Part shown: positions 16,453 through 33,267 of the stretch, in pieces
How the letters are laid out: every line of letters starts with the position of its first letter
Position numbering within the stretch: position 1 is the first letter of the stretch
Source: a virus
DNA: 42,091 nt
Reading direction: 5' to 3' (one strand)
Virus record (IMG/VR): IMGVR_UViG_3300030419_003672
Location: 629-42,719 of that record
Made by a program: the position numbers and the translations under genes
The notes under the pieces: model-generated
Told to the model about the DNA's origin: nothing
Databases searched by the model: none
The model's input: only the letters and a program-made list of their open reading frames with translations

Positions 16453-16686
16453 ATGAATGCATTCAACCCTGCAAATTATGATTATAACAAGGCACCTCAC
16501 ACAAAACAATACGCTTTTGAAGATCCAACCATGATGGCAAAGTTTACACATGGAAACAAAAGCAATCCATTTATTACAAAGATAGAAATGGCAGACAAAC
16601 AAACTCTTTCTGTTGAGTACCGAGATGAATCTGGTATCTCACATAGCGATAAAATATACAACGATATCACTGGAGAAGCCGAATGA
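16453..16686 (+). CDS. Hypothetical protein, 77 aa
   Basis: MNAFNPANYDYNKAPHTKQY...; GGAG is 7 nt before the ATG at 16453. C-terminal half is beta-rich (NPFITKIEMADKQTLSVEYRDESG). Its stop overlaps the start of the polyprotein gene as ATGA, so the two are likely co-translated. Function unknown. Confidence 0.65.
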   Translation: MNAFNPANYDYNKAPHTKQYAFEDPTMMAKFTHGNKSNPFITKIEMADKQTLSVEYRDESGISHSDKIYNDITGEAE

Positions 16687-18587
16687 AATCCTTTAAGACA
16701 CATCTGAGAGAAATGTACGACACAAGCCCTGTTGATACAAAGAAAAAAATGAAAGACGTAGAAGAACCTCTCAAGGGAAAAGGTTATCCCTACAACGAGG
16801 ATGATGAGAAGAACTTCAAACCTCATATGATGTACGACCCCAAGACGGGTAAAGGATATAAGGCAAAGACATACAAAGATCACTTACGAATGGATAAGAT
16901 GGGTTATGTTCACGATAAACCAGAAGTCAAAGAAGTAAAGAAAAAAGGAAAGCATGATTGTGCTACTCATGTAGAACACGCTGAATTTGGTGAAGGTCAG
17001 TGCATTCATTCTCAACATGCTACTCCAGACGAAGATGGAAATATCGCATGGTATGATGTAATGTTTGAGCATGGCATTGAAAAGGGCGTTTCAATTAATG
17101 AACTCAAAGTTGTAGCAAGCGAAATGCACGAAGATCATCATCACGATGTTAAAGAAGCAACAAGGTTAATGAGTCAGGGTATGACTTCGATTTATCAAGC
17201 AGACACTAGAGCAGAATATCAAAAACTATATGGTGCGGCATCGCAGGCGATGGATGACAAGATGGTTGGTCGTGGTGGAATGGTTGGCGACAGAAGTAAA
17301 CTAACCGTGAAGATTGCGTTCAAAGACGAAAAGAGTCGTAAGAAGTTTGAGAAGATGAACAACATCAAAGAATCCGTTGAACTGGATGAATCGGGTGACC
17401 CACGCATCGCAAAGTTGAGTTTCAAAGCAAAAGAAATTCTTGCAAATATGGCAAACTCTTTAGACACCACTGGTGGTCCTTACTTAGACAACAGGAATGT
17501 CAAGTTTCTAACTAGAAGAGGTGTGGAGAACACACTCAAAGCGGCAAGTAGAATCCCTAAAGGTAACAAGAGAGCGGCACAGGACCTTGCAATTCTCAAG
17601 AAGGAACTTGGAGAGTCCGTTGAACTGGGTGAACAGACCAAAGAATTCTACAATGAAGTCCACGCTGAACTAAAAAAGGTAATGGACAGCAAGTATTATC
17701 GTGAATTCCGTGCTTCAAATGGTGGAAGAGCATTAGAGAATGTTATCAATCACATGGGCAAATCACGGGGATGGCGTGTAGACAAAACTGTTAAGTCTAT
17801 CATTGACAAGTATGGGAAAAACCGAGATGAGTATGTCAAGTTATCATTCCAGTCGGCAGCGAAAGGTAGGATGCGTGAATCCGTTGAACTGGATGAAGCA
17901 AAGACTATTACTCTTGTTGCAAAGAAGGGTAAAAAGACTGTAGAAACCGTAAAGAAAGTTACTCCTAAAGAACAAAAGACAGTAGAGATGCTTCTGAAGA
18001 CGGCACACGGTAAGGACATCACGATTGAAGTTGTAAAAGAATCCGTTGAACTGGATGAAGCATCCGAGAAGCAAATGATTGATATGCTTCGCAAGGAGTA
18101 TGGAAAGATCTCAAAGGTTGATCCATCAAGTCCTACCTACAAGAAACTCACAGGACTCCTCGATAACCTTGCAAAGAACAACCCTAGTCTATTGAAGAAA
18201 CTCTCAAAGGCAAAGATCAAGTTTGTTTCTCCTCTTGCATTGAATCGCGTCAACCGCAAGAAGATGGATGAAAAAGTGATGGGTGCTTTGCCTGGTGGGT
18301 CGCCAACTCGTAAATTTGAAGTACCCCCAAGTCCAGATGTAAAGAGTCACATTCTACAAACAAAAAAATCAGAGTTTCTATACTCTGCCGATTCGGTGCT
18401 TGGTGGTAACAGTAAGTTTGTTGTTATATCAACAAAACGCCATAAGATAGCAGGCGAAGATGGTGTCATGATGGCAATCATTAGTAATCCTGATCGTGGT
18501 TCTAGAAAAATCTTTAGTTATTTTGGAACACATAGGAATGTTGCTGGTGCAAAGAAGTTTGCAAAGAACAATAAACTTATATCTTGA
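16683..18587 (+). CDS. Virion-internal polyprotein candidate with capsid-targeting leader and four SVELxE sites
   Basis: 634 aa. Leader MKSFKTHLRE, then a His/Lys-rich domain (HVEHAEFGEGQCIHSQHATPDEDG, EDHHHDVKEATRLMSQGMTSIYQ). The motif ESVEL(D/G)E occurs at residues 230, 311, 399 and 453, separating compact modules; LDE followed by S/A fits the T4 gp21 prohead-protease rule of cutting after L/I-x-E. The last module (KSEFLYSADSVLGGNSKFVVISTKRH) is beta-rich. Very high Lys content suits contact with packaged DNA. Similar ESVELDEA mosaics occur in other marine T4-like phages (recollection). No enzymatic motif. Probably packaged and cleaved in the prohead (inference). Confidence 0.75.
   Translation: MKSFKTHLREMYDTSPVDTKKKMKDVEEPLKGKGYPYNEDDEKNFKPHMMYDPKTGKGYKAKTYKDHLRMDKMGYVHDKPEVKEVKKKGKHDCATHVEHAEFGEGQCIHSQHATPDEDGNIAWYDVMFEHGIEKGVSINELKVVASEMHEDHHHDVKEATRLMSQGMTSIYQADTRAEYQKLYGAASQAMDDKMVGRGGMVGDRSKLTVKIAFKDEKSRKKFEKMNNIKESVELDESGDPRIAKLSFKAKEILANMANSLDTTGGPYLDNRNVKFLTRRGVENTLKAASRIPKGNKRAAQDLAILKKELGESVELGEQTKEFYNEVHAELKKVMDSKYYREFRASNGGRALENVINHMGKSRGWRVDKTVKSIIDKYGKNRDEYVKLSFQSAAKGRMRESVELDEAKTITLVAKKGKKTVETVKKVTPKEQKTVEMLLKTAHGKDITIEVVKESVELDEASEKQMIDMLRKEYGKISKVDPSSPTYKKLTGLLDNLAKNNPSLLKKLSKAKIKFVSPLALNRVNRKKMDEKVMGALPGGSPTRKFEVPPSPDVKSHILQTKKSEFLYSADSVLGGNSKFVVISTKRHKIAGEDGVMMAIISNPDRGSRKIFSYFGTHRNVAGAKKFAKNNKLIS
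17370..18062 (+). repeat. Four in-frame copies of a 21-nt SVELDE-coding repeat
   Basis: The core GTTGAACTGGATGAA with a preceding GAATCC is identical at 17370-17390, 17877-17897 and 18039-18059; the copy at 17613-17633 differs slightly (GAGTCC, GGT for GAT). A fifth identical copy is at 27313-27333 and a diverged one at 27532-27552 in another gene. Nucleotide identity beyond what the peptide requires suggests recent copying or recombination. Confidence 0.85.
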
Positions 18588-18611
18588 CATACATTTAATG
18601 TGAGGTATACT
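18584..18611 (+). promoter_or_regulatory. Sigma70-like promoter TTGACA-N16-TATACT
   Basis: -35 TTGACA (18584-18589) overlaps the stop codon of the polyprotein gene; -10 TATACT (18606-18611), 16-nt spacer. The downstream ATG (18619) is 7 nt away. Confidence 0.8.
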
Positions 18612-18618
18612 ATTAATT

Positions 18619-19278
18619 ATGAAGTACAAACAATTCACACACATTTTACACGACCACACCTTTGAGTCTCTAAAGGCTGAAACAGCAGAGGGTGGTCGGT
18701 TTTATTCTTCGCCTGTTGGTAACATGCCGAGTGTCACCACAGTAACAGGCTGGGAGAAGAGTAAATTCTTTGCAAAGTGGCGAAGAGAAAATCCACAAGA
18801 GTCAAGGCGAGTCACATCAAGAGGAAACGCCTTTCACTCATTGATTGAAGACTACCTAAACAATGAATTAGATATATCTAAGTGGACACCAGAAACCGTT
18901 GAACTATTTCATCAGTTGAAACCAGAACTCGATAAGATAGACAACATATACGCCTTAGAAGTGCCGTTATGGAGCGAAGCAATGATGCTCGCTGGTCGTG
19001 TGGATTGTGTAGCAGAATATAATGGCAAACTATCCATCATTGACTTCAAGGGTTCAACAAGAGCAAAGAGAAAAGAAGATATTCAAAACTATTTCCTACA
19101 GGCAACGGCATATGCCATTGCATGGCAAGAGAGAACAGGACAAGCAATCGAAAACTTTGCCATTCTTATGTCATGTGAAGATGGTATCACTCAAGTATTT
19201 GAGGGTAAGCCAATAAAATACGCAAAACCATTACTTGAAGCAATAGAAAATTATCATGCATCCGTTGAATTAGTTTAG
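18619..19278 (+). CDS. PD-(D/E)XK exonuclease (MGME1/RecB-like)
   Basis: 219 aa. N-terminal SVTTVTGWE and RGNAFHSLIEDYL, then LAGRVDCVAEYNGKLSIIDFKG with Asp129, Asp142 and Lys144 as the PD-(D/E)XK core, and QATAYAIAW (Gln161) as the motif after it. This is the pattern of phage homologues of mitochondrial genome maintenance exonuclease 1 and Cas4/RecB nucleases. Probably degrades DNA ends for recombination or host DNA recycling. Apparently leaderless: no ribosome site and the -10 box ends 7 nt before the ATG. It has its own early promoter inside a late region. Confidence 0.87.
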   Translation: MKYKQFTHILHDHTFESLKAETAEGGRFYSSPVGNMPSVTTVTGWEKSKFFAKWRRENPQESRRVTSRGNAFHSLIEDYLNNELDISKWTPETVELFHQLKPELDKIDNIYALEVPLWSEAMMLAGRVDCVAEYNGKLSIIDFKGSTRAKRKEDIQNYFLQATAYAIAWQERTGQAIENFAILMSCEDGITQVFEGKPIKYAKPLLEAIENYHASVELV

Positions 19279-19288
19279 GAAAAGTGAT

Positions 19289-20017
19289 ATGCATTATGAT
19301 TTTGTTGAAATAGGGACATGCGATTTTGATACTGAAATAGAAAAAGCCAATAACAACACCATCGGTCTTAGTGTTGAACCTGTTCCTTTTTATTTCAATA
19401 ATCTTCCAGATAGAAAAAAATGTAAGAAGGTTAACGCCGCAGTAAGCAACAAAAATACAACTGTGGAAGTTTACTACATTAAACCTCACTTAATAGATGA
19501 GATGATGTTACCAAAATGGTGGAGAGGGTGTTCCACCATTAATGAAGAACCAGAATGTATTGTAAGTGAATTAAAAAAAGGAATATTTCAATCTCACCAG
19601 TTGAATATATTGGGACCTGATTTTGTTACTAAAAATAACAACCCAATTCATGATTATGTTGCACAATGTAACTCTACAAGTATTAAATATGTCATGGACA
19701 AAACTATAGAAAATTTTATTACTAAAGAAACGGTTCCATGTTTCACGCCAGAAATGTTATTTTTAGAACATGAAGTATCGTCTATAGATTTTTTAAAGAT
19801 AGACACAGAGGGTCATGACATTATTATAATGAATGAAATTATACAATTAATTAAAGATCTCCGAGGTTGGGATGATTTAATTATACAGAAAATTCAGTTT
19901 GAAATAATGAATCAAGAAGAAGACAAACTTCTGAATATTCATGAATCTCTTATAGAACTTGGATATACTTGTGTTGATTTAAATGATACAACAAATAGGA
20001 CATATGAACTAGTTTAA
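19289..20017 (+). CDS. FkbM-family methyltransferase
   Basis: 242 aa. N-terminal FVEIGTCDFDTEI (SAM-binding loop), GLSVEPVPFYFNNLPD, NAAVSNKNTTVEVYYI, and C-terminal SIDFLKIDTEGHDIIIMNEI: the KIDTEGxD motif and ExxPxxF order are typical of FkbM SAM-dependent O-methyltransferases. AT-rich compared with neighbours. Likely modifies a glycan or small molecule, for example host surface sugars or a glycosylated virion protein (inference). Converges on the next gene with a 5-bp gap. Confidence 0.88.
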   Translation: MHYDFVEIGTCDFDTEIEKANNNTIGLSVEPVPFYFNNLPDRKKCKKVNAAVSNKNTTVEVYYIKPHLIDEMMLPKWWRGCSTINEEPECIVSELKKGIFQSHQLNILGPDFVTKNNNPIHDYVAQCNSTSIKYVMDKTIENFITKETVPCFTPEMLFLEHEVSSIDFLKIDTEGHDIIIMNEIIQLIKDLRGWDDLIIQKIQFEIMNQEEDKLLNIHESLIELGYTCVDLNDTTNRTYELV

Positions 20018-20022
20018 TTTCA

Positions 20023-21303
20023 TTAGGGTTGAACACCCATTCTATCACCTGCTCTAGTATAACCATTCTTTGTTCTTAGACATGCTTTATCTGCATTTCT
20101 AAAATTCTTATCTGTTGCTATGTCCCATTCTGGCATACCAACATTGTTTATTGTAAACTTTACATAAAACACTCTACCTGCAATCGCATCTGCAAATATT
20201 TCTCTCATGTCTGCTGCATTACCATGATGACATTCTGATTGTAATATTTTTTCACACGCATAACGAATAACCTTCTGGTCTACCTTACCCCTCTTGTTTG
20301 GTCGCTTTTGTACAGTTTCATTTTTTTGTATAAACGTAGACCACAACTTTACATCATAATTATTACCTTTTCTTGCCATGTCTTGTGCTGCTTTTTTAGT
20401 AAGGCCTGGATACTTCTTTTTTAATGCTGCACTCGTTTCGACAAGTTCTGCTGCTGCGAGAGGAGGACCGTTTGCTATGTTATTCTCATTAAGTATTGTG
20501 AGTATCTTATACTGAATCGTCCTCTGCCATTTTAGTTTTGCTTTTGACCCACCATCTTTCTTGTCAATTAGATCTAATATATCTTTTGGTTTTACAACAT
20601 TTGTTGTTTTGGATAATGCTTTTGCAGATATTGTTATAAGTTTTCTATTCTTTCCTGTACCCACATACATTCCATAATCCATTAGGGGTTCGTTTGGTCT
20701 TGCTGGAAACCAAGACTTCGCATTCGCTGGTATTTTTATTTTATTGTTTGTTGCTTTATCTATGAGAGAGTGTGCATATACTCCAAACGGACCTAATAAC
20801 TCACCAAAATCATTAATGATTGCTCTCTTAATGGATGCATTTGTTTTTATTGGTTCATATGCTTCTTTTAATTGTGCATCTGTGACTAAAGATCCTTCTG
20901 AATGATATAACAATAGTAACTCTAAATAACCCTTCACTTCTCCGCTTAGATCTTGTCTCTCTGACATTGTATCTAATGCAATATCTCTTATCTGATCAAA
21001 ACTATACTCTCTTTCCTTGATTCCGAATGCTTGAGGTTTTAGATCTGCTCTGCTTGACGCTTTGTTGCCAGGTTTTGCTAGGTTATTGAATGGAACTCTG
21101 TAAATTTCGTTGCCTTCTTTTACAAGAGCCTTTGATTGATACTCGCCCTCATTTATAAAGATCAGAGAAACTCCTTTCTTCACAACACCTTCTGTGAGTG
21201 TAGTTTCTGCATTATATCTTGATGAGTCTTTTCGAAGTATTGTTGGTATCTCTGAGGCGGAATTAAAATACTTCGCCCATGCTGTTCTTCCTGTAGTTGC
21301 CAT
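20023..21303 (-). CDS. Large conserved phage protein of unknown function, 426 aa
   Basis: Starts MATTGRTAWAKYFNSASEIP at 21303, with GGAGGG upstream; ATGs further upstream would overlap the divergent late promoter. Contains a GVSLIFINEGEYQSKALVKEGNEIYRVPFNNLAKP segment, SARMAY-like helical parts and a C-terminal VFYVKFTINNVGMPEWDI. I recall similar proteins in T4-like phages without a function. Transcribed from TATAAATA, so it is a late, possibly virion or DNA-processing protein. No nuclease motif convincingly seen. Confidence 0.65.
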   Translation of the reverse strand: MATTGRTAWAKYFNSASEIPTILRKDSSRYNAETTLTEGVVKKGVSLIFINEGEYQSKALVKEGNEIYRVPFNNLAKPGNKASSRADLKPQAFGIKEREYSFDQIRDIALDTMSERQDLSGEVKGYLELLLLYHSEGSLVTDAQLKEAYEPIKTNASIKRAIINDFGELLGPFGVYAHSLIDKATNNKIKIPANAKSWFPARPNEPLMDYGMYVGTGKNRKLITISAKALSKTTNVVKPKDILDLIDKKDGGSKAKLKWQRTIQYKILTILNENNIANGPPLAAAELVETSAALKKKYPGLTKKAAQDMARKGNNYDVKLWSTFIQKNETVQKRPNKRGKVDQKVIRYACEKILQSECHHGNAADMREIFADAIAGRVFYVKFTINNVGMPEWDIATDKNFRNADKACLRTKNGYTRAGDRMGVQP

Positions 21304-21319
21304 AATATGCCCTCCATGA

Positions 21320-21331
21320 TATTTATAAATA
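21320..21331. promoter_or_regulatory. Overlapping divergent late promoters
   Basis: The palindromic stretch TATTTATAAATA contains TATAAATA on the minus strand (21320-21327) and on the plus strand (21324-21331), sharing 4 bp. They face the genes at 21303 (minus) and 21352 (plus). Confidence 0.75.
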
Positions 21332-21351
21332 GAATATACAAGGAGATTTAT

Positions 21352-21714
21352 ATGGTAAACCACGAAGATTATTCAGATTTTGATTTTGGTTTTACAGCAG
21401 CAGATGAGGATGAACTTAATAGCCTGATGGGTGCTGACACCGAAGATGTGACATCGGAAGAAATCACAGAGATGAAAGAGAAGTTAGATTTAATTCTTCA
21501 GATGAATTCAACTTGTGATGGTGCAAATCAAGTAAAAGAACAATACGACGAACTCATGACAGCAAAAATGCATGAGGTAGAACAGGTTGTCCTCCCATTA
21601 CTTGTAAATCTAAAAAAGAACAAAGCAAAAGATTACCTGTACTGGCCAGGCACACAAAGAGAAACACAATGCGAGTTACAAATACAAAAATTACTTAACA
21701 TCACAAGGAATTAA
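21352..21714 (+). CDS. Conserved small phage protein, 120 aa
   Basis: MVNHEDYSDFDFGFTAADED...; AAGGAG is 7 nt before the ATG at 21352. Acidic N-terminus with DFDFGF, a helical middle, and YLYWPGTQRETQCELQIQKLL at the end. The FDFGF start and YLYWP..R...C..QI...L end recur in many T4-like phages. Function unknown, under a late promoter. Confidence 0.75.
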   Translation: MVNHEDYSDFDFGFTAADEDELNSLMGADTEDVTSEEITEMKEKLDLILQMNSTCDGANQVKEQYDELMTAKMHEVEQVVLPLLVNLKKNKAKDYLYWPGTQRETQCELQIQKLLNITRN

Positions 21715-21720
21715 TACCAT

Positions 21721-22251
21721 ATGAGCAGAAATGTTCTACTATTAAACGCGAGTGAAGAAATACTAAAAATCATAAATTGGAAAAAGGCTGTTCAGTTACT
21801 AGAAACTGGAAAAGCAAGAAAGCCTTTTGGTTATAAAGAGAAACACAAAATAAGGACGGTTCGTGGGATATATGAACTACCCGCTGCAATCGTCCTTGTT
21901 CGTTATACTAGAATACCTTGGAAAGATACCAAAATTCAACCCACAAGAAAAAATATATTCAGAAGAGATAATTGGACATGTCAGTATTGTGGTTATAAGT
22001 CTAAAGATCCAAAGAAATTAACAATTGATCATGTTCATCCTAAATGCTTAGGTGGTGGTCATCAGTGGACAAATTTAGTTACTGCTTGTCCTAAATGTAA
22101 TAGTAAAAAATCAAATAAACCTCTGAAAAAATGTGGAATGAAACTTATCACCAAACCAAAGAAACCTACTGTCTATGGATTAGAATTAGTTGGCATCGAT
22201 GAGAATGGTAAAGAGTTATGGAAACGATGGTTGGATATACATATACGGTAG
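21721..22251 (+). CDS. HNH endonuclease
   Basis: 176 aa. N-terminal NASEEILKIINWKKAVQLLETGKA is the usual start of this free-standing HNH family. HNH core: CQYC (87-90), TIDHVHP (101-107), NLVTACPKCNSKKSN (118-132), giving a zinc-bound beta-beta-alpha-metal nuclease. May be a homing-type or DNA-processing endonuclease. No intron is seen nearby, so it is free-standing between late genes. Confidence 0.9.
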   Translation: MSRNVLLLNASEEILKIINWKKAVQLLETGKARKPFGYKEKHKIRTVRGIYELPAAIVLVRYTRIPWKDTKIQPTRKNIFRRDNWTCQYCGYKSKDPKKLTIDHVHPKCLGGGHQWTNLVTACPKCNSKKSNKPLKKCGMKLITKPKKPTVYGLELVGIDENGKELWKRWLDIHIR

Positions 22252-22260
22252 GAGATTTAT

Positions 22261-23079
22261 ATGAAAGAAGTATATAAAGATTCAGGATTAGGAAAATGGT
22301 TCGGTGCTGGTGGTAAGGGTGGAACCTCAAAGGGGGGTTGGGATCGCTATAACACCAAGGGTGAAAAGATTGGTAAATGTGGGGACTCTAAACCAGGCGA
22401 AGGTAAACCTAAGTGTTTGTCTGCAACTAAAGCAAGAAAGTTAAGGGCGCAGGGAGGTAAGAAGGCAATCGCAAATGCAGTGAAGAGGAAAAAAGCACAA
22501 GACCCACAGACTGACAGACCAGGCACTGGTAATAAACCTATTAATGTTTCAAATCGTATCGACAAAGACCCAAAGAAAAAAGGCATACAGGATAATCATA
22601 TGAAATCATTTAAACAATTTATAGAAGAGAAAAATAAACCAACAAATCCCTCTGCTTGGTCTGCATGTATATCACAAGCAAAGCAAAAGTTTGATGTTTA
22701 TCCATCTGCATATGCAAATGCTTGGGCTTCAAAATGCTACAAGAAAAAGGGTGGCGGTTGGAAAAAAGTTTCAGATTCTGTCGAACATGATTGTGGTTGT
22801 GTGGATGAAAAATCTGCTGCGTGGCAGCGTAAAGCAGGAAAGAATCCAGAGGGTGGACTTAATGCTAAGGGTCGCAAGTCATATGAACGAGAAAATCCTG
22901 GCAGTGACTTGAAAGCACCAGTGTCTGCCAAGACTGCAAAGAAAAACCCAAAGGGAAAGGCAGCGAAACGACGAAAATCATTCTGTGCAAGAATGGGTGG
23001 AATGCCAGGACCAATGAAAGACCCAAAGACAGGTAAACCTACAAGGAAAGCATTAGCACTTCGTAAATGGGATTGTTAA
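22261..23079 (+). CDS. Three-module Lys-rich virion-internal candidate with an internal capsid-targeting start
   Basis: 272 aa. Module 1 (1-110): KDSGLGKWFGAGG...GWDRYNTKGEKIGKCGD...CLSATKARKL, a small Gly/Lys/Cys domain common in phages (DUF5872-like by recollection). Residue 114 begins MKSFKQFIEE, a capsid-targeting leader in the middle of the frame, with AGGA 7-8 nt before its ATG (22600). Module 2: PSAWSACISQAKQKFDVYPSAYANAWASKCYKKKGG. Module 3: SAAWQRKAGKNPEGGLN...FCARMGGMPGPMKD...ALALRKW (DUF6321-like). Either a fusion of two genes or a dual-start gene. GGAG lies upstream of the first ATG. Confidence 0.75.
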   Translation: MKEVYKDSGLGKWFGAGGKGGTSKGGWDRYNTKGEKIGKCGDSKPGEGKPKCLSATKARKLRAQGGKKAIANAVKRKKAQDPQTDRPGTGNKPINVSNRIDKDPKKKGIQDNHMKSFKQFIEEKNKPTNPSAWSACISQAKQKFDVYPSAYANAWASKCYKKKGGGWKKVSDSVEHDCGCVDEKSAAWQRKAGKNPEGGLNAKGRKSYERENPGSDLKAPVSAKTAKKNPKGKAAKRRKSFCARMGGMPGPMKDPKTGKPTRKALALRKWDC

Positions 23080-24078
23080 GTGAAATCATTCAAGCAATAC
23101 ATCACAGAAGGAAAGTATCCTCCTCGCGTAAAGGGTTGGGGGAACGCAAAGACAGGCAAACTTGTATTGACTCCCATCAAAGGCAAGTATAAACCATATC
23201 ACCAAGAGTTTGCTTCGAATAACTTGCGTAAGTTAGGACTCAAAGAGAAAGATGCAATCAAGTATATTGATGATGTACACACTCCACCGACTGATAATCA
23301 CACGAAAAGAATGTGGAAGAATATACAGGATGGTATACTAGATCGAGACAAGGCCTTCCAACAATTCCTGAACAAGAATGGGTGGTATTCGATTGTAATT
23401 GATAATGGCACAAGTAGTATCGGTGATTACAAAGGTAGTCTAAACAAGTATCATAAGATTGCTGTTGCAATCGACAAGAAATATGGCGACTCAATGTTTC
23501 AGTCCTCATCAGACTACTTTGAAGTCGGTACAGAGGACATCGATAACAAGTACGACTGGAACAATTATATCAAAACCAAGAAGGTTGGAGGTCGAACGGA
23601 AATCGGCAGAACAATGGCACAGTTCAGAGAGAGTTACCTCGCAGAAAAAGCCACTAAACTATCTGCAACCTACCCATATAAAGGTGCCAAATGGGAAGAC
23701 TTTCGTGGTCTAGAGAATCCTACTGAACGAGAGATAAAAGCATTGTTGAAAAAGTCAAGTTTCAATGAGTTAAGATTCGTTGTAGATTCTAAAGGCAAAA
23801 TGTGGGCGTGGGATACAGACGATGCACTCCACGAACCAGTGGTGTATGCGATGACTGGTAAGAAATATGATGGAGACTATGCAAAAGGAATGATTAACTT
23901 TATAGATCCAGACGATCCAGACGATATGGGGTGGGATCTATCTGATGGTAATTTACATGTATTAATTCTCAATAGTCGCATCGGAACAAAGTTTGCACTA
24001 AAAAACAAAACCATGAAAGCACTCGCCAAGCGTATCAATTCAAAGGGTAAAGATAGAATCTGGTGGAAGGATACATGA
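23080..24078 (+). CDS. Capsid-targeted protein, 332 aa, GTG start
   Basis: Begins at GTG directly after the preceding TAA. Leader MKSFKQYITE-G fits an I-x-E prohead cleavage site (I-T-E). The body contains KGWGNAKTGKLVLTPIKGKYKPYHQEF, WYSIVIDNGTSS, a central helix and a C-terminal FVVDSKGKMWAWDTDDALHEPV. I cannot assign a function. Ends ATGA into the ligase-like gene. Placement among leader-bearing genes supports an internal head protein. Confidence 0.7.
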   Translation: MKSFKQYITEGKYPPRVKGWGNAKTGKLVLTPIKGKYKPYHQEFASNNLRKLGLKEKDAIKYIDDVHTPPTDNHTKRMWKNIQDGILDRDKAFQQFLNKNGWYSIVIDNGTSSIGDYKGSLNKYHKIAVAIDKKYGDSMFQSSSDYFEVGTEDIDNKYDWNNYIKTKKVGGRTEIGRTMAQFRESYLAEKATKLSATYPYKGAKWEDFRGLENPTEREIKALLKKSSFNELRFVVDSKGKMWAWDTDDALHEPVVYAMTGKKYDGDYAKGMINFIDPDDPDDMGWDLSDGNLHVLILNSRIGTKFALKNKTMKALAKRINSKGKDRIWWKDT

Positions 24079-25274
24079 AATCATTTAAGCAATACATCCT
24101 ATCAGAAGCAAAGAACACGCACTTAACCCATGCGGCAGATTTATCTTTTGAAGGTTACTCTAGAACACAAGAAGCAATTCGTTTCTTGGAGTCTCTTGTT
24201 GACATGCTTAGAGGAAGTGGTGATAGTAAATTAAACCTAACAAGAAAATGGGACGGTGCGCCTGCAATTATATGCGGCACAAATCCAGAGAATGGAAAAT
24301 TCTTTGTTGGTACGAAGAGCATTTTTAATAAGATACCAAAGATAAACTACACCAATGCAGATATTAATAAAAATCATGGTGGTGGATTAGCAGATAAATT
24401 AAAAGTGGCACTCAAACATTTATCTAGACTTGGAATAAAGGGTATATTGCAAGGTGATTTTCTCTTTGACTCTAGTGACTTGTCATTCAAAAAGATGGAC
24501 GGAGAGAAATATCTAACCTTCACACCAAACACCATAACTTATGCAGTCGGTGAGGGAAAACTACAAGACAGAATTAAAAAGGCGAAGATGGGAATAGTTT
24601 TCCATACCAAATATACAGGTAAAGAATTAAATAACATGAAAGTATCTTTCAACGTAAGTGAATCAGACTTTGGTAAGTCCTCATCTGTATGGGCGATTGA
24701 TGCAGGATATAAGGATGTATCTGGTAAAGCATCATTTACTGAAAAAGAATATACAAAGATAACAAATCTAATTAAGAAAGCAAAAACAAGTGCAAATAAA
24801 GCGAAGAGAGGTTCAAACCTAATTGCAAAAACGCCTGCAATATCTTCGATGATAAACATATACACAAATGCAAAGGTAAAACAGGGTCAATATTCATTTT
24901 CACCAAGAGAGTTTATTGGTTTCGTTGATGATAAGTTGGAGGCAGACGTTGAAAAACTCAAGAGCGAAAAGGGTAAGGTTAGAAAAAGAAAAGCAAAAGA
25001 TGATATGATAAGAAGCATTAGAAGTGTTTCAAAGGATCTTGCCGATGTCTTTCGTTTAAACTCAGATTTACAAAAGTGTGTATTGTTTATTATAAGAAAA
25101 CTCGAAGAAGTACAGTCCCTAAGAACATTCATTAAGACAGCAAATGGATATAAGGTAACAAGAGATGAAGGTTTTGTTGCAAGTGATAGAGTCGGTTCTG
25201 CTGTGAAGTTAGTGGATAGATTAGAATTTTCAAGAGCCAATTTTACAGTTGATAAAAATTGGGTGAAAGGATAA
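24075..25274 (+). CDS. Capsid-targeted nucleotidyltransferase/ligase-like protein (DUF6267-like)
   Basis: 399 aa starting MKSFKQYILSE-A at 24075 (GGAAGG 4 nt upstream; ATGA overlap). After the leader comes NTHLTHAADLSFEG, then LTRKWDGAPAI with Lys58-x-Asp60-Gly61, which matches motif I (KxDG) of the ATP/NAD ligase and capping superfamily. Later GILQGDFLFDSSDL and GIVFHTKYTG could be motifs III and IV. A Lys-rich C-terminus follows. Such proteins are widespread in T4-like cyanophages (recollection). The leader implies packaging in the capsid, so a ligase-like protein may be injected with the DNA (inference). Confidence 0.75.
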   Translation: MKSFKQYILSEAKNTHLTHAADLSFEGYSRTQEAIRFLESLVDMLRGSGDSKLNLTRKWDGAPAIICGTNPENGKFFVGTKSIFNKIPKINYTNADINKNHGGGLADKLKVALKHLSRLGIKGILQGDFLFDSSDLSFKKMDGEKYLTFTPNTITYAVGEGKLQDRIKKAKMGIVFHTKYTGKELNNMKVSFNVSESDFGKSSSVWAIDAGYKDVSGKASFTEKEYTKITNLIKKAKTSANKAKRGSNLIAKTPAISSMINIYTNAKVKQGQYSFSPREFIGFVDDKLEADVEKLKSEKGKVRKRKAKDDMIRSIRSVSKDLADVFRLNSDLQKCVLFIIRKLEEVQSLRTFIKTANGYKVTRDEGFVASDRVGSAVKLVDRLEFSRANFTVDKNWVKG

Positions 25275-25277
25275 AAT

Positions 25278-25622
25278 ATGAAAAAAGAAGAAGTGAATAA
25301 AAAAAATAGTAACACATGGACAAGAATAAATGATGACTCCAAGAAAAAACAATGGAGAAAGAAATTCATAGAGAAATTTGGTGGATCATTCAAACAAGTG
25401 AGTAGATTATATGTTGAATGGCAAGAAGATACACCAAAAACAGAGGAAAAACCTAAAGAAAGAATAATTTCTTTAATAAATCCTCAAGGAGAGGTAGTTG
25501 AAATACAAAACTTTACTAAATACTGTAGAGAAAACGATCTAAGCAGATCTGCACTATATGAAGTTATGCGAGGATCAAGAAAACAACACAAAGGCTACAC
25601 AGCCAAACTAAAAGGAGAATGA
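25278..25622 (+). CDS. Small protein with NUMOD/IENR-like DNA-binding repeat, 114 aa
   Basis: Lys-rich N-terminus with WRKKFIEKFGGSFKQVSRLY, then ISLINPQGEVVEIQNFTKYCRENDLSRSALYEVMRGSRKQHKGY, the pattern of a nuclease-associated modular HTH (NUMOD1/IENR1: NPxGE...F..F..CREN.L....L..V..G....HKG). No catalytic domain is attached, so it may be a remnant of a homing endonuclease or a DNA-binding accessory. Confidence 0.7.
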   Translation: MKKEEVNKKNSNTWTRINDDSKKKQWRKKFIEKFGGSFKQVSRLYVEWQEDTPKTEEKPKERIISLINPQGEVVEIQNFTKYCRENDLSRSALYEVMRGSRKQHKGYTAKLKGE

Positions 25623-25623
25623 C

Positions 25624-25758
25624 ATGACGACTTTAGCGGTTTTAGATTCATTTTTAGGTACACTTTGGTTCTCGATTTTAGTTTTTATAGCAGGGGCATT
25701 TCTCGGCGCACCACTTTGGAAGTATCTTAGTAAACATCTTCCTTGGAATAAACAGTAG
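25624..25758 (+). CDS. Tiny membrane protein, 44 aa
   Basis: MTTLAVLDSFLGTLWFSILV... One membrane helix (about 10-32, ending GAFLGAPLW), then a short basic end. AAAGGAG is 7 nt upstream. Its stop codon lies in the stem of the structured RNA that follows. Function unknown. Confidence 0.55.
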   Translation: MTTLAVLDSFLGTLWFSILVFIAGAFLGAPLWKYLSKHLPWNKQ

Positions 25759-25883
25759 ATAATAGTCTACTGCTCTTCCATTGAATTGAGTATCAATTAC
25801 TAGGAGGAGGTGATCCGAAAACTTAAAAAATACAGGAAAGCAGTAGGCTTAAAGAAGGCTCGGAAACGGGCCTTCTTCTTTTT
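25753..25883 (+). ncRNA. Candidate structured RNA with a 12-nt complement of the 16S rRNA 3' end
   Basis: A gene-free 155-bp stretch. CAGTAGA (25753-25759) can pair with TCTACTG (25766-25772); alternatively TCTACTGC (25766-25773) pairs with GCAGTAGG (25840-25847), a mutually exclusive fold. Between lie the hairpin AATTGAGTATCAATT, then AGGAGGTGATCC at 25805-25816, an exact complement of the conserved bacterial 16S tail GGATCACCTCCT. The end is an intrinsic terminator. The only frame is a 25-codon GTG frame with no proper ribosome spacing. RNA nature is inference. Confidence 0.45.
25852..25883 (+). terminator. Intrinsic terminator
   Basis: AAGAAGGC (25852-25859) pairs with GCCTTCTT (25870-25877), with a short inner loop, followed by CTTTTT. 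Ends upstream transcripts just before the late promoter at 25883. Confidence 0.8.
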
Positions 25884-25890
25884 ATAAATA
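25883..25890 (+). promoter_or_regulatory. T4-type late promoter TATAAATA
   Basis: Exact TATAAATA, 25 bp before the ATG at 25915, directly following the terminator; it isolates expression of the large mosaic gene from upstream transcription. Confidence 0.75.
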
Positions 25891-25914
25891 TAATGTACTA
25901 AAAAGGAACTTATT

Positions 25915-28236
25915 ATGTCAGTAGCAGTATTTACATTTGGAAGGTTCAATCCCCCCACAAATGGTCATGGGGTATTAGCAGATAAAATTAAATCTGTTGC
26001 AAGAAGATCTGGTGGGAAACCTTTTATTTTTACTGGTCATAGTAAAGATGCAAAAAAGAATCCACTCGACTATAAATCAAAAATAAAATATATGTCAAAA
26101 GCATTTCGTGGTGTGGATGTGGTAAACGATGCATCTATACGAACTATATTTGATGCTTTGAAGTATCTCGACAAGAAGAACTACGAAGAGGTGAAATTAG
26201 TCGTGGGTTCGGATAGGGTTCCTGAATTTAGAAAACTATTAAAAAAATACCTCAAGGACTACGGATTCACTGAGTTTGAAGTAGTTTCTGCTGGCGAAAG
26301 AGATCCCGATGCAGAGGGCGTCAAGGGAATGTCTGCATCAAAGATGAGAGCAGCGGTTGCACGAAACGATTATGATTCTTTTCTTCTAGGTTGTCCCAAA
26401 GGTCTTTCAAAGAAAGACTGCTTACAGATGTTCAATGATGTGAAAAAGGGTATGGGTGTAAGTGAATCTATTAATGAAGAGTTGTGGTTTAATTATGAGG
26501 AATTTGAACAATTCTGTGAAAGAACCATGAGTCTTGCTGCCAGAAAAAAGATGGCAAGAGTTGCGAGAAGAACAGCAAAGAAAAGAGCAAGAACTCGAAA
26601 GAGAAAAGAGAAGTTTAGAAAGACGGATGATAAACTAAAGACATTAGCAAAAAAACAGGCGAAGATGAAACTTCGTCAAAAGATGTTAGGTGACAAGCAT
26701 TGGGGTGATCTTTCTATCGGTGCAAGACAAAAGATTGATAATATGCTTCAGAAGAAAGCAAAGAAAATAGAAAAAATGTCTAAGAAACTATACCCAGCCG
26801 TCAAAAAACAAGAACGAGAAAGAATTCAAAATCTTAGAAATCCAGGACCATCTGATCAAAAAGAAGGAAAAGAACTTCTACGAGAACCAGAGATCTACGA
26901 CAGATTAGTATCACAGTTAAAAGCAAAAGGAAAAAGCGACGATGCTGCTCATGCTATTGCTACATCTCAACTACAAAAGCACGGAATTCTTAAAAAGGGT
27001 ACTAGAGAATTGACTGATAAAGGTAGAGAACGAAACTCAATGTCTGCCTCTGAAAGAGCAAAAGACAGAGCAGCCAAGAAGGATGGAAAATCTCCCGAAG
27101 ACTATGAATATAACAAGAAAACAAACATTGCAACTCAAAAGGAAGAACTAATGAAAGAGTATTCTGAAGAAAAACCACTCTTAAAGTGGATGGAAGTTTT
27201 TAGATCTGAACTCAAGAAGGGTGGTTCGTCTTACAAGAAGGTAGATCCAGTGGATGCTCTTAAACTATATTATAAGGGTGTTGATCCAAAAAAAGCAGCA
27301 GCCCAACTCAAAGAATCCGTTGAACTGGATGAAGGACTACCTTCATATAGTTATCCAACCTTCAAAGAAATACAATCAAAAGGCAAGAAACTTGGCGATT
27401 GGATGGGTAAATCCTACTATGAATATGATGGTAGTGTGTGGATGCTCAAGAATGGTAGAGCATCGAACCAAGGATCAGTTGCACAAGCAAAGAAGAAATT
27501 CAACAAATCTCTTCTCAAGAATCTAAATTTTGAATCCGTTGAAGTAGATGAAGCATGTTGGGATACACATGTACAAAAAGGAATGAAGAAAAAAGGCGGT
27601 AAGATGGTTCCGAATTGTGTTCCTAAAAGCGTTACAGATGCAGTTGAAGAAGATACTTTCAAGAAGAAAGCAGTTAGAGATGTGGAAGCAAAATTTAAAC
27701 CACAGGCTGACGCTCTAAAGAAAAAACTTGAAACAGAAAGAAAGAAACGAGATTCGATAAAAGTTATATCAAAGCATACTTCAGCAAGAGATGCTGCTCG
27801 TAAGAAAAAAGAAGAGGCTGATAAAAAATTAGCAGCGATAAGAGCGAAATTAGCAGCCGCCCGTGCTAATTCTATAAGGGGCAGAAGTCAAAATACGGAT
27901 AAACCTAGTGATGTAGAAGAAAATCATGCATCTTTGAAGGATCGTCGTGCTTATTTGAAAAAAACTGTTGCAGATAGAACTGCAAGAGTTCTTGCAAGAA
28001 GAGAAATGATCAAAAAAGGAAAAGCAAAAGTTGGTGATGGTAAAGATGTAGATCATAGGGATGGAAATCCTCAAAACAATTCGAATGGAAACCTTCGGAT
28101 GATGGATGTTAACACCAATAGAAGCAGAAACAATAACAAACAACACGAAGAACACGGCGCGGGAGATGAAGGTACAGACAAACTTCTTAAAAAATATCGT
28201 AAAGACACTCCGTACTCACAGGATAATAAAGGTTGA
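25915..28236 (+). CDS. Mosaic virion-internal candidate: nucleotidyltransferase head, SVELDE sites, HNH-like tail
   Basis: 773 aa. Residues 1-150 are a cytidylyltransferase/NMNAT-like domain: FGRFNPPTNGH (T/HxGH at 15-18), VGSDRVPEF and GMSASKMRAAV, the equivalent of the ISSTxxR motif. Then a long Arg/Lys helix region (AARKKMARVARRTAKKRARTRKRK), YDRLVSQLKAKGKSDDAAHAIA and MSASERAKDRAAK (modules seen in other phages), ESVELDE at 467, YYEYDGSVWML, ESVEVDE at 540, CWDTHVQKGMKKKGGKMVPNC, and a C-terminal HNH-like DVDHRDGNPQNNSNGNLRMM. LDE/VDE sites fit gp21-type processing. Likely packaged; catalytic roles of the ends unproven. Confidence 0.78.
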   Translation: MSVAVFTFGRFNPPTNGHGVLADKIKSVARRSGGKPFIFTGHSKDAKKNPLDYKSKIKYMSKAFRGVDVVNDASIRTIFDALKYLDKKNYEEVKLVVGSDRVPEFRKLLKKYLKDYGFTEFEVVSAGERDPDAEGVKGMSASKMRAAVARNDYDSFLLGCPKGLSKKDCLQMFNDVKKGMGVSESINEELWFNYEEFEQFCERTMSLAARKKMARVARRTAKKRARTRKRKEKFRKTDDKLKTLAKKQAKMKLRQKMLGDKHWGDLSIGARQKIDNMLQKKAKKIEKMSKKLYPAVKKQERERIQNLRNPGPSDQKEGKELLREPEIYDRLVSQLKAKGKSDDAAHAIATSQLQKHGILKKGTRELTDKGRERNSMSASERAKDRAAKKDGKSPEDYEYNKKTNIATQKEELMKEYSEEKPLLKWMEVFRSELKKGGSSYKKVDPVDALKLYYKGVDPKKAAAQLKESVELDEGLPSYSYPTFKEIQSKGKKLGDWMGKSYYEYDGSVWMLKNGRASNQGSVAQAKKKFNKSLLKNLNFESVEVDEACWDTHVQKGMKKKGGKMVPNCVPKSVTDAVEEDTFKKKAVRDVEAKFKPQADALKKKLETERKKRDSIKVISKHTSARDAARKKKEEADKKLAAIRAKLAAARANSIRGRSQNTDKPSDVEENHASLKDRRAYLKKTVADRTARVLARREMIKKGKAKVGDGKDVDHRDGNPQNNSNGNLRMMDVNTNRSRNNNKQHEEHGAGDEGTDKLLKKYRKDTPYSQDNKG
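27313..27555 (+). repeat. Two further SVELDE/SVEVDE repeats
   Basis: The copy at 27313-27333 is identical to those in the gene at 16683; the copy at 27532-27552 encodes SVEVDE with base changes. Each is followed by a Gly or Ala codon. Confidence 0.8.
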
Positions 28237-28892
28237 ATGGGGTAAATAATATAGATCTCTTTGGTTCATGGGTAGAACTTGGTATGGTAATCGCTGCGAT
28301 TGCTTGTGGTTTTCTAATATCATTACCCTCCATTATTAGGTGGAGAAAAAACATATCAAGTAGAAAAAAGGATCTACATTATCCTTCAAGTTTTAATTGG
28401 GACATTCATACAACGGTACATGAAATACTTACCGAGTTAAGAGTTCAAACTGACTCTGCCAGAAGTCAAATAATACAATTTCATAATGGTGGTCATTTTC
28501 TGGATGGAATATCCATGAAAAAAATGACATGTACTCATGAGTCAATCAATATTGGGGTTTCTGGTGAAGGAGACAGAAAAAAAGACCTAGCGATCACCAT
28601 GTTTTTACCTTTATTAAATCTGGTCAAAGAAAACACAGCAAAAATTCATATAACAAGTTCTTTCCCTGATACATATTGTAAAAAATTTATGGAAACATCA
28701 TCTGTTATAGCATTTTCTACCCTACCAATCAGAAATAATAACAATATAGTTGGTTATCTAATGTGTCAGTGGTGTAGTTGGAATAAAGCAGACGCCATAG
28801 ATGAAATTTCGATTGAAAATGAGATGGAATCTGCAAGAAATCGAATAGAAATATATCTAGGACAGCAACTTAAAAAAAACATAAATATATAA
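28233..28892 (+). CDS. Membrane-anchored protein with possible GAF-like domain, 219 aa
   Basis: Starts at TTG overlapping the previous stop (TTGA); the only in-frame ATG downstream would cut into the membrane helix. One membrane segment at about residues 14-33 (VELGMVIAAIACGFLISLPS). Cytoplasmic part: ELRVQTDSARSQIIQFHNGGHFLDGISMKKMTCTHESINIGVSGEG, then FSTLPIRNNNNIVGYLMCQW, a layout like GAF sensor domains. I recall the QFHNGGxFLDGxSMKKxxxTHES pattern in other marine phages. Function unknown. Confidence 0.65.
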   Translation: MNGVNNIDLFGSWVELGMVIAAIACGFLISLPSIIRWRKNISSRKKDLHYPSSFNWDIHTTVHEILTELRVQTDSARSQIIQFHNGGHFLDGISMKKMTCTHESINIGVSGEGDRKKDLAITMFLPLLNLVKENTAKIHITSSFPDTYCKKFMETSSVIAFSTLPIRNNNNIVGYLMCQWCSWNKADAIDEISIENEMESARNRIEIYLGQQLKKNINI

Positions 28893-28905
28893 AAAGGAGA
28901 TAAAC

Positions 28906-29118
28906 ATGCCTAATTTTAATAACTCAACACTAAATGACCAGACATTTCAAAGGAATGATAGAGTAGGAAGATCATGGAGAAAAAGATACGTCAAGGAAAA
29001 TGGCGGAAAGTTTGTTAGATCTGGAGATACTTGGTCGTGGGGTGACGGAACCACAAAAAAGGTTTCTGCTCCAAAAAAGGTATCCTCAAGAAAGGTATCC
29101 AAAAATGAAGACGTTTAA
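28906..29118 (+). CDS. Small basic protein, 70 aa
   Basis: MPNFNNSTLNDQTFQRNDRV...; AAGGAG is 6 nt upstream. Lys/Ser-rich repeat-like end (KKVSAPKKVSSRKVSK). Compact WRKRYVKENGGKFVRSGDTWSWGDG segment may be a small domain. Overlaps the next gene by 14 nt. Possibly a DNA-contacting internal protein. Confidence 0.6.
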   Translation: MPNFNNSTLNDQTFQRNDRVGRSWRKRYVKENGGKFVRSGDTWSWGDGTTKKVSAPKKVSSRKVSKNEDV

Positions 29119-29587
29119 TGAAATTAAAAAGAATGTATTAGAAGATTATAATGCATGGGGAAGCAGAAATCGTTCTGCGTTGAGTGACTTTGGAACCCAT
29201 AGAGTAGAATTTGATGAACAGGTTTTTCGTATTAATATCTTTCTAGAAAACTACTTTGATAGACCTATATTAGATTCTGTGAGTGCATTTAATCAATTAA
29301 GAGCAAAATTGAATATTGTGGCACTCGATTTCAAGGTTGATCCTGAAGCAGTAAAGACAGAAGGAAAATTTGAATTCCCAGTAACCAGACATGGTGGTTC
29401 ATTTGGCACAACACCAGATCATGATCTCTCTACGGGATTTTATAAAGATGATGGAATTCGTGGAATGTCCATGTCTATCGTGGGTGAGGTAAAAATGGAA
29501 GACACAGGATATTCAATCAAAGCAAAATTAACTCAGGTTGCAGACAAAACAGACGAATATAAACCAGAGCCTGTAGACAGAGAATAA
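29105..29587 (+). CDS. Hypothetical late protein with leader-like N-terminus, 160 aa
   Basis: Start at 29105, MKTFNEIKKNVLE-D, weakly similar to the capsid-targeting leaders (V-L-E rather than L/I-x-E). Body beta-rich: THRVEFDEQVFRINIFLENYFD, LNIVALDFKVDPEAVKTEG, MSMSIVGEVKMEDTGYSIKAKL. A longer frame to 29000 overlaps the upstream gene and has no ribosome site. Probably virion-associated. Confidence 0.6.
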   Translation: MKTFNEIKKNVLEDYNAWGSRNRSALSDFGTHRVEFDEQVFRINIFLENYFDRPILDSVSAFNQLRAKLNIVALDFKVDPEAVKTEGKFEFPVTRHGGSFGTTPDHDLSTGFYKDDGIRGMSMSIVGEVKMEDTGYSIKAKLTQVADKTDEYKPEPVDRE

Positions 29588-29592
29588 GGAAA

Positions 29593-30003
29593 ATGAAAGT
29601 GTTGTGTATGGGTTCCAGTGATTTAAATTCTAAAACATTTATAATATATGCTATGCAAAATTATAAAAATCCCAAATGCTCAAGCATGGAGGAATTTTAT
29701 GAAGATTTGAATAGGATAAAATATATTAAAAGATTGCTAGGCAGATACCATCAAAAAAACATATTAAAAGAAAGACTTATATTAAATCATATAATAATAT
29801 TAGGAAATTTATTCGGAACAATACCAACATCTAGAATACTCTTTTTCAAATTAAATGAAAACTTACATCCATACCTAAAAACATTTTTAGATTTTCTAAA
29901 TTATTTACCTGAAATACAAGAAGAGATACCAGAAGTTAAATTGAATGATATTCCAGTTGACTTGAAAATAGTAAAAACTTTAAGGGGATTAGGAAATGAA
30001 TAG
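29593..30003 (+). CDS. Conserved hypothetical phage protein, 136 aa
   Basis: MKVLCMGSSDLNSKTFIIYA...; AAGGA upstream. KNPKCSSMEEFYEDLNRIKYIKRLLGRYHQ...LKERLILNHIIILGNLFGT is a motif I recall from T4-like phages (EEFYxDLxRxKYxKRLxxxY...LKERLxLNHxIxLxNxFG). Mostly helical. Overlaps the next gene by 8 nt. Function unknown. Confidence 0.7.
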   Translation: MKVLCMGSSDLNSKTFIIYAMQNYKNPKCSSMEEFYEDLNRIKYIKRLLGRYHQKNILKERLILNHIIILGNLFGTIPTSRILFFKLNENLHPYLKTFLDFLNYLPEIQEEIPEVKLNDIPVDLKIVKTLRGLGNE

Positions 30004-30406
30004 ATTAGTAAACGCTTTCGTGATATATAAGTTTCTAAAACTTCTAGTCCTTCCTTTTGAAAAAACTGATGCTTACAAATTGGGAATAATTGACAAAGAT
30101 GGTAATTATCTCAAAAAACAAAAAGACTTAAAAACGTCAAAAGAGAAACTAGCAAGTAATATATTTACTAGATTGGTATGGAACATAAAGAAAATATTAA
30201 GAAAGATTCCTCTTGGTAAAACCACAATCGCTTCTTTAGCAACTGCTCTTTATCTCATAAGAGAAGAGGCTGAAAAAGTTGGTGTTGATGGAGAATTGTT
30301 AGAAATGGCATTTATTGATCATGTTAATGAAACTTACGACATAGATATTAAGGAAGAGTTATTAACAGAAATGTCTTTAATAGGAGAAAAAAATGGGTTG
30401 CTCTAG
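29996..30406 (+). CDS. Conserved hypothetical phage protein, 136 aa
   Basis: MNRLVNAFVIYKFLKLLVLP..., with FEKTDAYKLGIIDKDGNYLKK and LVWNIKKILRKIPLGKTTIASLATALYLIREEA. This pattern (FKTxAYxxGIIDxxGxxLKK...FHRLVWNxKRLLxKxPxGK) is widely conserved in T4-like marine phages, function unknown. A virion or core role is plausible from its position. Confidence 0.75.
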   Translation: MNRLVNAFVIYKFLKLLVLPFEKTDAYKLGIIDKDGNYLKKQKDLKTSKEKLASNIFTRLVWNIKKILRKIPLGKTTIASLATALYLIREEAEKVGVDGELLEMAFIDHVNETYDIDIKEELLTEMSLIGEKNGLL

Positions 30407-30548
30407 TTGCGGTAGAAACAAATTTAATGCATATAAAGCGGCAAGATCTAATGCAAGAAAATCTAGCACAGGAAAACGATTTAGAAGTGTAGATTTAAAA
30501 GCACAAAGAACTGCAAAATTAAGAAGGCCTATAAGGAAAGTAAGATGA
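30393..30548 (+). CDS. Small Arg/Lys-rich protein, 51 aa
   Basis: MGCSSCGRNKFNAYKAARSN... with a CxxC pair at residues 3-6; the rest is basic, ending RRPIRKVR. Overlaps both neighbours (14 nt before, 4 nt after as ATGA). TAGGAG lies 9 nt upstream. Likely nucleic-acid binding or a virion component. Confidence 0.6.
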   Translation: MGCSSCGRNKFNAYKAARSNARKSSTGKRFRSVDLKAQRTAKLRRPIRKVR

Positions 30549-30874
30549 AAGCATGGAACGTCCTAAAAGAAGACATAGCAACCACCGCATCTGGTGGTGC
30601 AATAAAGGGTTTGGGTAAACCCCCAGAAGATGGTCCTCCTGTTTCTAAAAAGAAAAGAAAAAAATTTGCTGGATCTGATGTATTTGAAGTGAGCAATGAC
30701 GAGTACATGAGTCTCATGAAAGGTAGAAAAAAACATGAACGATGGTCACGCAAATTTAATATGGAAGAAATAGAAAATAAAGAAATTAGACAATACTCAC
30801 ATAGAAATCCTAGTAAATCAATAATATTACAAAATAAAATGACGGGTGATATGATGTACTTGAGGAGATTTTAA
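30545..30874 (+). CDS. Conserved phage protein with leader-like N-terminus, 109 aa
   Basis: MKAWNVLKED..., then GGAIKGLGKPPEDGPPVSKKKRKKFAGSDVFEVSNDEYMSLMKGRKKHERWSRKFNMEE and YSHRNPSKSIILQNKMTGDMMYL. I recall the KKxxKKxAGxxVFEVxxxEYxxxMxGRxKxERWxxxLNMEE and YxHRNPxKxxIxQ patterns from many T4-like phages. Probably virion-associated; not enzymatically interpretable. Confidence 0.7.
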   Translation: MKAWNVLKEDIATTASGGAIKGLGKPPEDGPPVSKKKRKKFAGSDVFEVSNDEYMSLMKGRKKHERWSRKFNMEEIENKEIRQYSHRNPSKSIILQNKMTGDMMYLRRF

Positions 30875-32442: not shown

Positions 32443-33165
32443 CTATTCTACCCTTTTAATCGTTTTCCTTATCCAATTTAAATACTGTTTAACCTTTGTT
32501 GCTGAATTTTCATAAACCATCCCATCTGGATCTGTGGATAGTGTGCTTATTATTCCAACTAATTTAAATTCATTTCCAAATATAGAATAAACAGCACCAC
32601 CAGAATCACCAAACCATATGGTGTCCTTTAATGGTAAGAATTTTATATAATTTGGTTCCTCTATTAATGTTCCATAATAAAAGAATACTCCAACCTTACT
32701 GTATTTTTTAATATCTCTACTAAACCCCACAGTGATTAAAAACTTACCTTTATATAGAGTGTCATCTTCGGATACAAGAATTGCGGGAACAATTCCTTCA
32801 ACATCTTTATTTAATACAACTAAAGCGATATCATTCCATATGAGATGTTCATTATATTCTTCATGAATTATAATTTCTTTTAGTAGGTAATACTTGTTAG
32901 ATATTACAAAAAACGCTGGAGGATCATCAACAACATGACCAGCGGTAAGTACAACATTTTTTTCTATGAGAACACCTGATCCTATTAAAGAATTGTTAGT
33001 GTTTCTAAAACAACCAACCGCAGGAAAAGGATCTGAATTAGGTAAAATTTCTTGAAAGAAATTCTCTACTGCCGTAGAATTTTCTAATTGAGGAATATCT
33101 ACAGTTGTTTTACAAGCACATACACATGACAAAGATATGAGTAATGTGAATATTAACTTATACAT
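32443..33165 (-). CDS. Trypsin-like serine protease, exported (lipoprotein-like)
   Basis: 240 aa. MYKLIFTLLISLSCVCACKT is a signal peptide with Cys-rich end, compatible with a lipoprotein. Catalytic triad: His77 (LTAGHVV), Asp112 (NDIALVVL) and Ser188 (GDSGGAV), all in the S1 order. No PDZ domain, so not DegP-like. Upstream the -10-like TATAGT is 4 nt before the ATG without a ribosome site. It would act in the periplasm or on the cell surface; role could be processing of host envelope or phage proteins (inference). Confidence 0.85.
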   Translation of the reverse strand: MYKLIFTLLISLSCVCACKTTVDIPQLENSTAVENFFQEILPNSDPFPAVGCFRNTNNSLIGSGVLIEKNVVLTAGHVVDDPPAFFVISNKYYLLKEIIIHEEYNEHLIWNDIALVVLNKDVEGIVPAILVSEDDTLYKGKFLITVGFSRDIKKYSKVGVFFYYGTLIEEPNYIKFLPLKDTIWFGDSGGAVYSIFGNEFKLVGIISTLSTDPDGMVYENSATKVKQYLNWIRKTIKRVE

Positions 33166-33239: not shown

Positions 33240-33267
33240 AGGAGGTGATCCTATATTATTATAGGAT
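33240..33267 (-). promoter_or_regulatory. Porin 3' UTR with 16S-tail-like GGATCACCTCCT and hairpin
   Basis: Between the porin stop and its terminator: a perfect hairpin ATCCTATA-ATAA-TATAGGAT (33267 to 33248) and, directly after, GGATCACCTCCT (33251 to 33240), identical to the conserved 3' end of bacterial 16S rRNA. CACCTCCT is left single-stranded. A C-rich seed beside a terminator resembles a 3'-UTR-derived small RNA that could pair with Shine-Dalgarno sequences (inference). Confidence 0.45.

Follow-up and report, generated by a model that had tools for sequence, protein, structure and literature searches.

The leaders of the internal proteins of phage T4 are established as being removed. 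In IPI, IPII, IPIII and Alt, which are processed by gp21, the leader is ten residues long and its key positions are 4, 7, 8 and 10 (Black and colleagues; PMC3012670, PMC9026906); by mutation, targeting depends mainly on residues 4 and 7 and processing on residues 8 and 10 (PMC9026906). Phages phiKZ and SPN3US likewise hold much protein in the head that a prohead protease sets free by cutting after Glu (PMC9026906, PMC5694885). Searching the literature for capsid targeting in combination with cyanophages turned up the T4 review and nothing else. Here we describe 42,091 nt of DNA from a T4-like phage (the window; positions 629 to 42,719 of IMGVR_UViG_3300030419_003672, a record that is itself a 42.7-kb fragment), in which one short leader recurs on several genes and L-x-E sites recur inside long proteins. 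We consider it likely that these are T4-type capsid-targeting leaders cut after [LI]-x-E by a gp21-type protease, that the long proteins are polyproteins of modules, and that the cargo probably enters the cell with the DNA. The leader belongs to an established class; the proposed modular cargo polyprotein varies it in a new way.

Leaders of the T4 internal-protein type

A start codon followed by K-x-F-x-x-[FYH]-[IL]-x(1,2)-E was found in frame five times in the window, against a mean and maximum of 0 among 60 length-matched first-order Markov sequences. Four of the leaders (plus strand unless stated; a slash marks the putative cut) were N-terminal: MKDFKTHLNE/S (6765–6794, minus strand) on a protein of the S-adenosylmethionine (SAM) lyase family, MKSFKTHLRE/M (16683–16712) on a 634-residue modular protein (gene 16683–18587), MKSFKQYITE/G (23080–23109, GTG start) on a 332-residue two-module protein, and MKSFKQYILSE/A (24075–24107) on a DUF6267 protein (gene 24075–25274). 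The fifth, MKSFKQFIEE/K (22600–22629), began at an internal in-frame ATG of the open reading frame (ORF) 22261–23079, with AGGA a few bases upstream and a DUF6321 domain downstream; it may be an internal start or a fused leader acting as an internal site. Two additional genes had variant leaders whose homologues show the standard form. One was the longer MKTFNEIKKNVLE/D (29105–29143; homologues e.g. MRKFKELRDFLKE and MKTYKELQEKMDNITE), overlooked in the initial annotation; the mechanical ORF begins at 29000, and the true start is likely 29105. The other was MKAWNVLKE/D (30545–30571, gene 30545–30874), whose homologues read MKTFGQLINE, MKTYKQLIQE and MKSYNQLIEE, bearing out its earlier description as a weaker relative. 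The initial annotation had also reported a shared leader on at least five frames and similar leader DNA between genes; every leader it quoted was found in its place, and ATGAAATCATTTAA[AG]CAAT, for example, occurred at both 22600 and 24075.

Constraint on the leader was measured on 192 distinct ATG starts in related viral loci, picked solely by K[STN][FY]xx[FYH] (positions 2, 3, 4 and 7). Glu stood at position 10 in 72% of them, compared with 17% for occurrences of this motif lacking a preceding ATG; the corresponding values were 69% and 25% for Ile or Leu at position 8, and 67% and 14% for [ILVM]xE at positions 8–10 or 9–11. The positions conserved in the window-type leader were 4, 7, 8 and 10, those that are key in T4. 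As controls, T4 IPIII starts MKTYQEFIAE and IPI starts MKTFKEFTSTTTPVSTITE, and the window leader matches the IPIII form. The T4 internal proteins share with the window the [LI]-x-E end of the leader, the diversity of the tagged proteins and, through relatives of the window phage, a lineage with a gp21-family protease. The window phage differs in its larger number of tagged genes, in having enzymes among the cargo, and in repeating the site within long modular proteins.

One T4 gene came to light on the side: gene 61.1 (NC_000866, 18966–19130), encoding a hypothetical protein, begins MKTFKEFIKE/D, a perfect leader of the internal-protein type, and its product may be an unrecognised T4 internal protein.

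Tagged proteins and virions of related phages

The proteins that bear the leader are unrelated to one another: one is of the SAM-lyase family, one of DUF6267 and one of DUF6321, and the rest match no known family. The product of gene 6186–6794 is assigned to the SAM-lyase family by its match to PF23780 (S-AdoMet_lyase; E=2.9e-12, 47.1 bits against a curated cut-off of 28), and it is homologous to gp6 of Synechococcus phage S-CREM2 (E=5e-13). Across six phages, whatever the length of the N-terminus, the residues preceding SSLSR[IL] in this family end in [LF]-x-E. The gene lies on the opposite strand, far from the leader cluster, and its closest matches are in Alishewanella, Microcystis and Campylobacter phages and in Prevotella Lak phages.

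The DUF6267 protein had been called ligase-like. K58, D60 and G61 of its KxDG motif I were invariant in 29 sequences, and leader residue E11 was conserved in at least 90% of them. Comparison with the PDB by fold and by sequence gave no significant match; T4 RNA ligase 1, capping enzymes and a DNA ligase were among the fold matches, all with E-values above 1. The term therefore rests on the KxDG motif. In the structure model (mean predicted local distance difference test score, pLDDT, 85.8), the leader (residues 1–12) was disordered, with pLDDT below 50. The mature parts of the tagged window proteins were basic (isoelectric point, pI, 8.9–10.1; median 9.5 versus 6.6), as are those of T4 internal proteins.

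Proteomics of another phage connected the leader with virions. According to Table 3 of PMC10665884, 52 proteins were detected in S-CREM2 virions by mass spectrometry. A strict leader pattern using the T4 targeting positions occurred on six of 219 S-CREM2 proteins, and five of the six were in the virion list; the one-sided Fisher p=0.003 comes from a test of six proteins with a pattern adopted after a loose [LI]xE pattern had missed significance, and is to be read with that in mind. The five were the SAM hydrolase (MKDFDSFLEE), gp13 (MKDLHSFLTE), a kinase (MKRFDAFLTE), gp136 (MQTFSMFFSE) and the cytidylyltransferase (MKNFSSFLTE), and they include homologues of the window SAM lyase and nucleotidyltransferase, the latter encoded at 25915. 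The authors of PMC10665884 left contamination open; the leader shared by these proteins argues against it. The window holds homologues of S-CREM2 virion enzymes (SAM hydrolase, kinase, cytidylyltransferase and Cas9 are reported there), namely a SAM lyase and a nucleotidyltransferase, in a phage of distinct lineage, with the same kind of leader, which the available text of PMC10665884 does not describe.

Further cases were found in other phages. The Cas9-annotated gp12 of S-CREM2 (L296:7704-10313), another protein of the virion list, contains RFASFMAE/A in an N-terminus that is longer. Related N-termini were seen in S-CRM01 g128 (L410:4702-5253; LDSFIKE/A) and in MA01 (L411:4716 on; FSSFLKE/A), the extended N-terminal stretch of all three closing with [LF]xSF[ILM]xE/A. 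The S-SCSM1 NMNAT, with leader MKSFLQFLKE, is annotated as a virion protein; one other S-SCSM1 leader gene is not so annotated. The S-CRM01 kinase starts MISFDQFLSE, and is among the proteins that PMC10665884 mentions as reported in virions. S-SCSM1 gp90 and gp89, virion proteins at a similar locus, were rejected as counterparts, being no homologues of the window DUF6267 or 23080 proteins.

A gp21-like protease, sought as the initial annotation had proposed, gave a divided answer. A PF03420 search of the window's own record found no match, a result that speaks for this fragment only, as no control genome matched; the family was present in the relatives G001 (E=1.2e-43), G002 and G003. G001 carries eight or nine leaders, with a cluster at 89–98 kb. 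Two of its tagged genes, at 96148 and 96888 (L170), are adjacent near-duplicates (MKSFKQYLEEN and MKSFKQYLKEN); their mature parts seem to be acidic (pI 4.1), where cargo is usually basic. In G001, S-CREM2 and S-SCSM1, the major capsid protein has L-x-E/A in the region of the T4 gp23 site FLTE/A; therefore, cleavage by the prohead protease of this lineage very probably follows the T4 rule. Together, the IPIII form, the key residues, the lineage protease and the S-CREM2 virion proteins favour the original proposal of a T4-like capsid-targeting leader. As judged from sequence, capsid targeting by the leader is strongly supported and its processing by the protease well supported.

Packaged and trimmed proteins might nevertheless serve head assembly or DNA condensation and not be injected effectors. 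The basic mature parts in the window would suit such a role, and T4 IPIII also affects head assembly (PMC9026906). Enzymes such as the SAM lyase, kinase and nucleotidyltransferase are, however, poorly explained as structural parts, and T4 IPI and Alt are injected (PMC3012670, PMC9026906); we regard this explanation as unlikely, though worth keeping in mind. Injection and the cargo roles we infer from T4 and from the enzyme families.

Internal sites and exchangeable modules

The internal L-x-E sites and the shuffling of modules were missed in the initial annotation and are more novel than the leader. Six ESVE[LV][DG]E heptapeptides in total were found in the 634-residue protein of gene 16683 and the 773-residue protein of gene 25915 (25915–28236). 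In the former they were ESVELDE/S (17370–17390), after which module 2 begins, ESVELGE/Q (17613–17633), ESVELDE/A (17877–17897) and ESVELDE/A (18039–18059); in the latter, ESVELDE/G (27313–27333) and ESVEVDE/A (27532–27552). The DNA at 17877, 18039 and 27313 was identical to that at 17370–17390. The 25915 protein comprises a nucleotidyltransferase N-terminus (CTP_transf_like/NMNAT-like; 45% identical to S-SCSM1 gp91 across 192 residues), modules and an HNH-like C-terminus. A late-promoter-like box, TATAAATA, lies 25 bases upstream of this gene (25883–25890); over the whole window it was not clearly enriched (6 versus 2.8 expected).

Module boundaries marked by an internal site in one phage carried a leader in another. 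In the 23080 protein, SYLAE/K (23632–23646) stands between two modules, the second of which is a separate leader-bearing gene in the related loci L264, L009 and L008; as a gene of its own it begins MKSFKQHITE/, MKSFLQYITE/ or MKSFGEYITE/. The place of MKSFKQFIEE at 22600 is taken by MKSFINHLNE in L235 and by MKSFKDYLQE in L008, both internal. A module behind ESVELDE in L219 starts with MKSFNEYIKE/ in L207, and in the 30545 family the module follows ESVELDE/ in L265, with ESVELDE and a leader exchanged between L265 and L270. The first module of ORF 22261–23079 (22261–22599) begins MKE/VYKDSGLG, where the relative L235 has MKSFKRHISE/VYKDSGLG, which looks like a leader shortened by seven residues.

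Viral contigs contained 111 stretches with an ESVELDE-type coding pattern, with up to seven sites per ORF, typically 50–130 residues apart. The modules between sites were homologous across different proteins, in varying order, and homology of ESVELDE proteins to others started near [LIVM]-x-E in 46% of cases, compared with 16% at control positions. As leader, L-x-E and ESVELDE are interchangeable at module boundaries, the simplest reading is that all are protease sites defining mature N-termini. This suggests cargo polyproteins built by module shuffling and cut by the prohead protease. The sites of phiKZ and SPN3US differ in being short x-x-E motifs, in another phage group, at which propeptides are removed, whereas those of the window also separate exchangeable modules.

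The DNA of the linker was unusually uniform. ESVELDE was coded by GAATCCGTTGAACTGGATGAA in eight of nine copies in the window and its near relatives L002 and L005, where TCC and CTG each make up only 10% of their codon family. Because the initial ESVELDE scan admitted only TCC for Ser, statements on codons are based on loci identified by other routes and on comparisons within single ORFs. Pairs of ESVELDE within one ORF were identical over 21 nt in 36% of cases, against 0.2% expected from codon usage; other lineages code the peptide with different codons. Such near-invariance suggests that the linker has been copied as DNA, for which recombination there may be the route.

This uniformity, with its unusual codons, could also mean that the leaders are capsid-targeting while ESVELDE stays uncut, as a linker or a binding motif, and is retained because its DNA serves recombination between modules; conservation of ESVE-L-D-E does exceed the needs of L-x-E cutting. 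Yet the same module, at the same boundary, can be preceded by ESVELDE in one phage and by a leader in a different one. With ESVE fixed and the rest free, Glu occupied the would-be P1 position in 189 of 244 cases and Leu the P3 position in 171 of 244, and Ala was the commonest residue after ESVELDE, as after leaders. An uncut linker thus seems rather improbable. We tentatively propose, with somewhat less than even confidence, that marine T4-like phages assemble a protein arsenal for the head in the form of shuffled polyproteins, and that in them the 21-nt ESVELDE element is portable, acting both as a recombination joint for non-homologous modules and as a prohead-protease release site in the head.

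Proposed working and implications

In the working that we favour, about ten leader residues would bind the prohead scaffold core, trapping the tagged protein inside the prohead, and a gp21-type protease would cut after [LI]-x-E, leaving mature cargo in the head. Because the L-x-E rule is repeated inside long proteins, one polyprotein with fused leaders and ESVELDE linkers would yield several small cargo modules, and these modules could be exchanged between genes and phages at the L-x-E and ESVELDE sites. At infection, the SAM lyase, the NMNAT-like and DUF6267 enzymes, the HNH domain and the many small modules would probably enter the cell as cargo along with the DNA.

Recent gene duplication or a translation-initiation preference is a very improbable source of the shared N-terminus: the first 18 nt are nearly identical among several genes and G001 has a true duplicate pair (MKSFKQYLEEN, MKSFKQYLKEN), but the mature parts come from unrelated families, Glu10 is retained while adjacent residues vary, and the leader pattern predicts virion proteins in another phage, S-CREM2.

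Several observations weigh against targeting and cutting as set out above. The virion evidence comes from homologues in other phages and not from the window phage, whose 42.7-kb record lacks a gp21 match. The loose [LI]xE test over all S-CREM2 proteins was not significant (5/28 versus 13/167, p=0.15). The 25915 nucleotidyltransferase and many ESVELDE proteins lack an N-terminal leader (for the latter, a canonical one), cyanophage DUF6267 proteins often begin MAKNTHLEH, without the leader, and three of eight tagged proteins of G001 are acidic.

Elsewhere in the window, a look-alike of an exported trypsin-like serine protease (32443–33165, minus strand) was noticed by eye, adjoining a porin-like outer-membrane protein (33267–34439, minus strand).

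The leader argues that the enzymes in cyanophage virions (SAM hydrolase, kinase, nucleotidyltransferase and Cas9) are genuine cargo and not contaminants. As a sequence rule, it would predict the virion-carried proteins of uncultured marine T4-like phages, a question answered today solely by proteomics of a few isolates. If the polyprotein reading is true, it would also show one means by which phages put together, and swap, collections of small proteins carried in the head.
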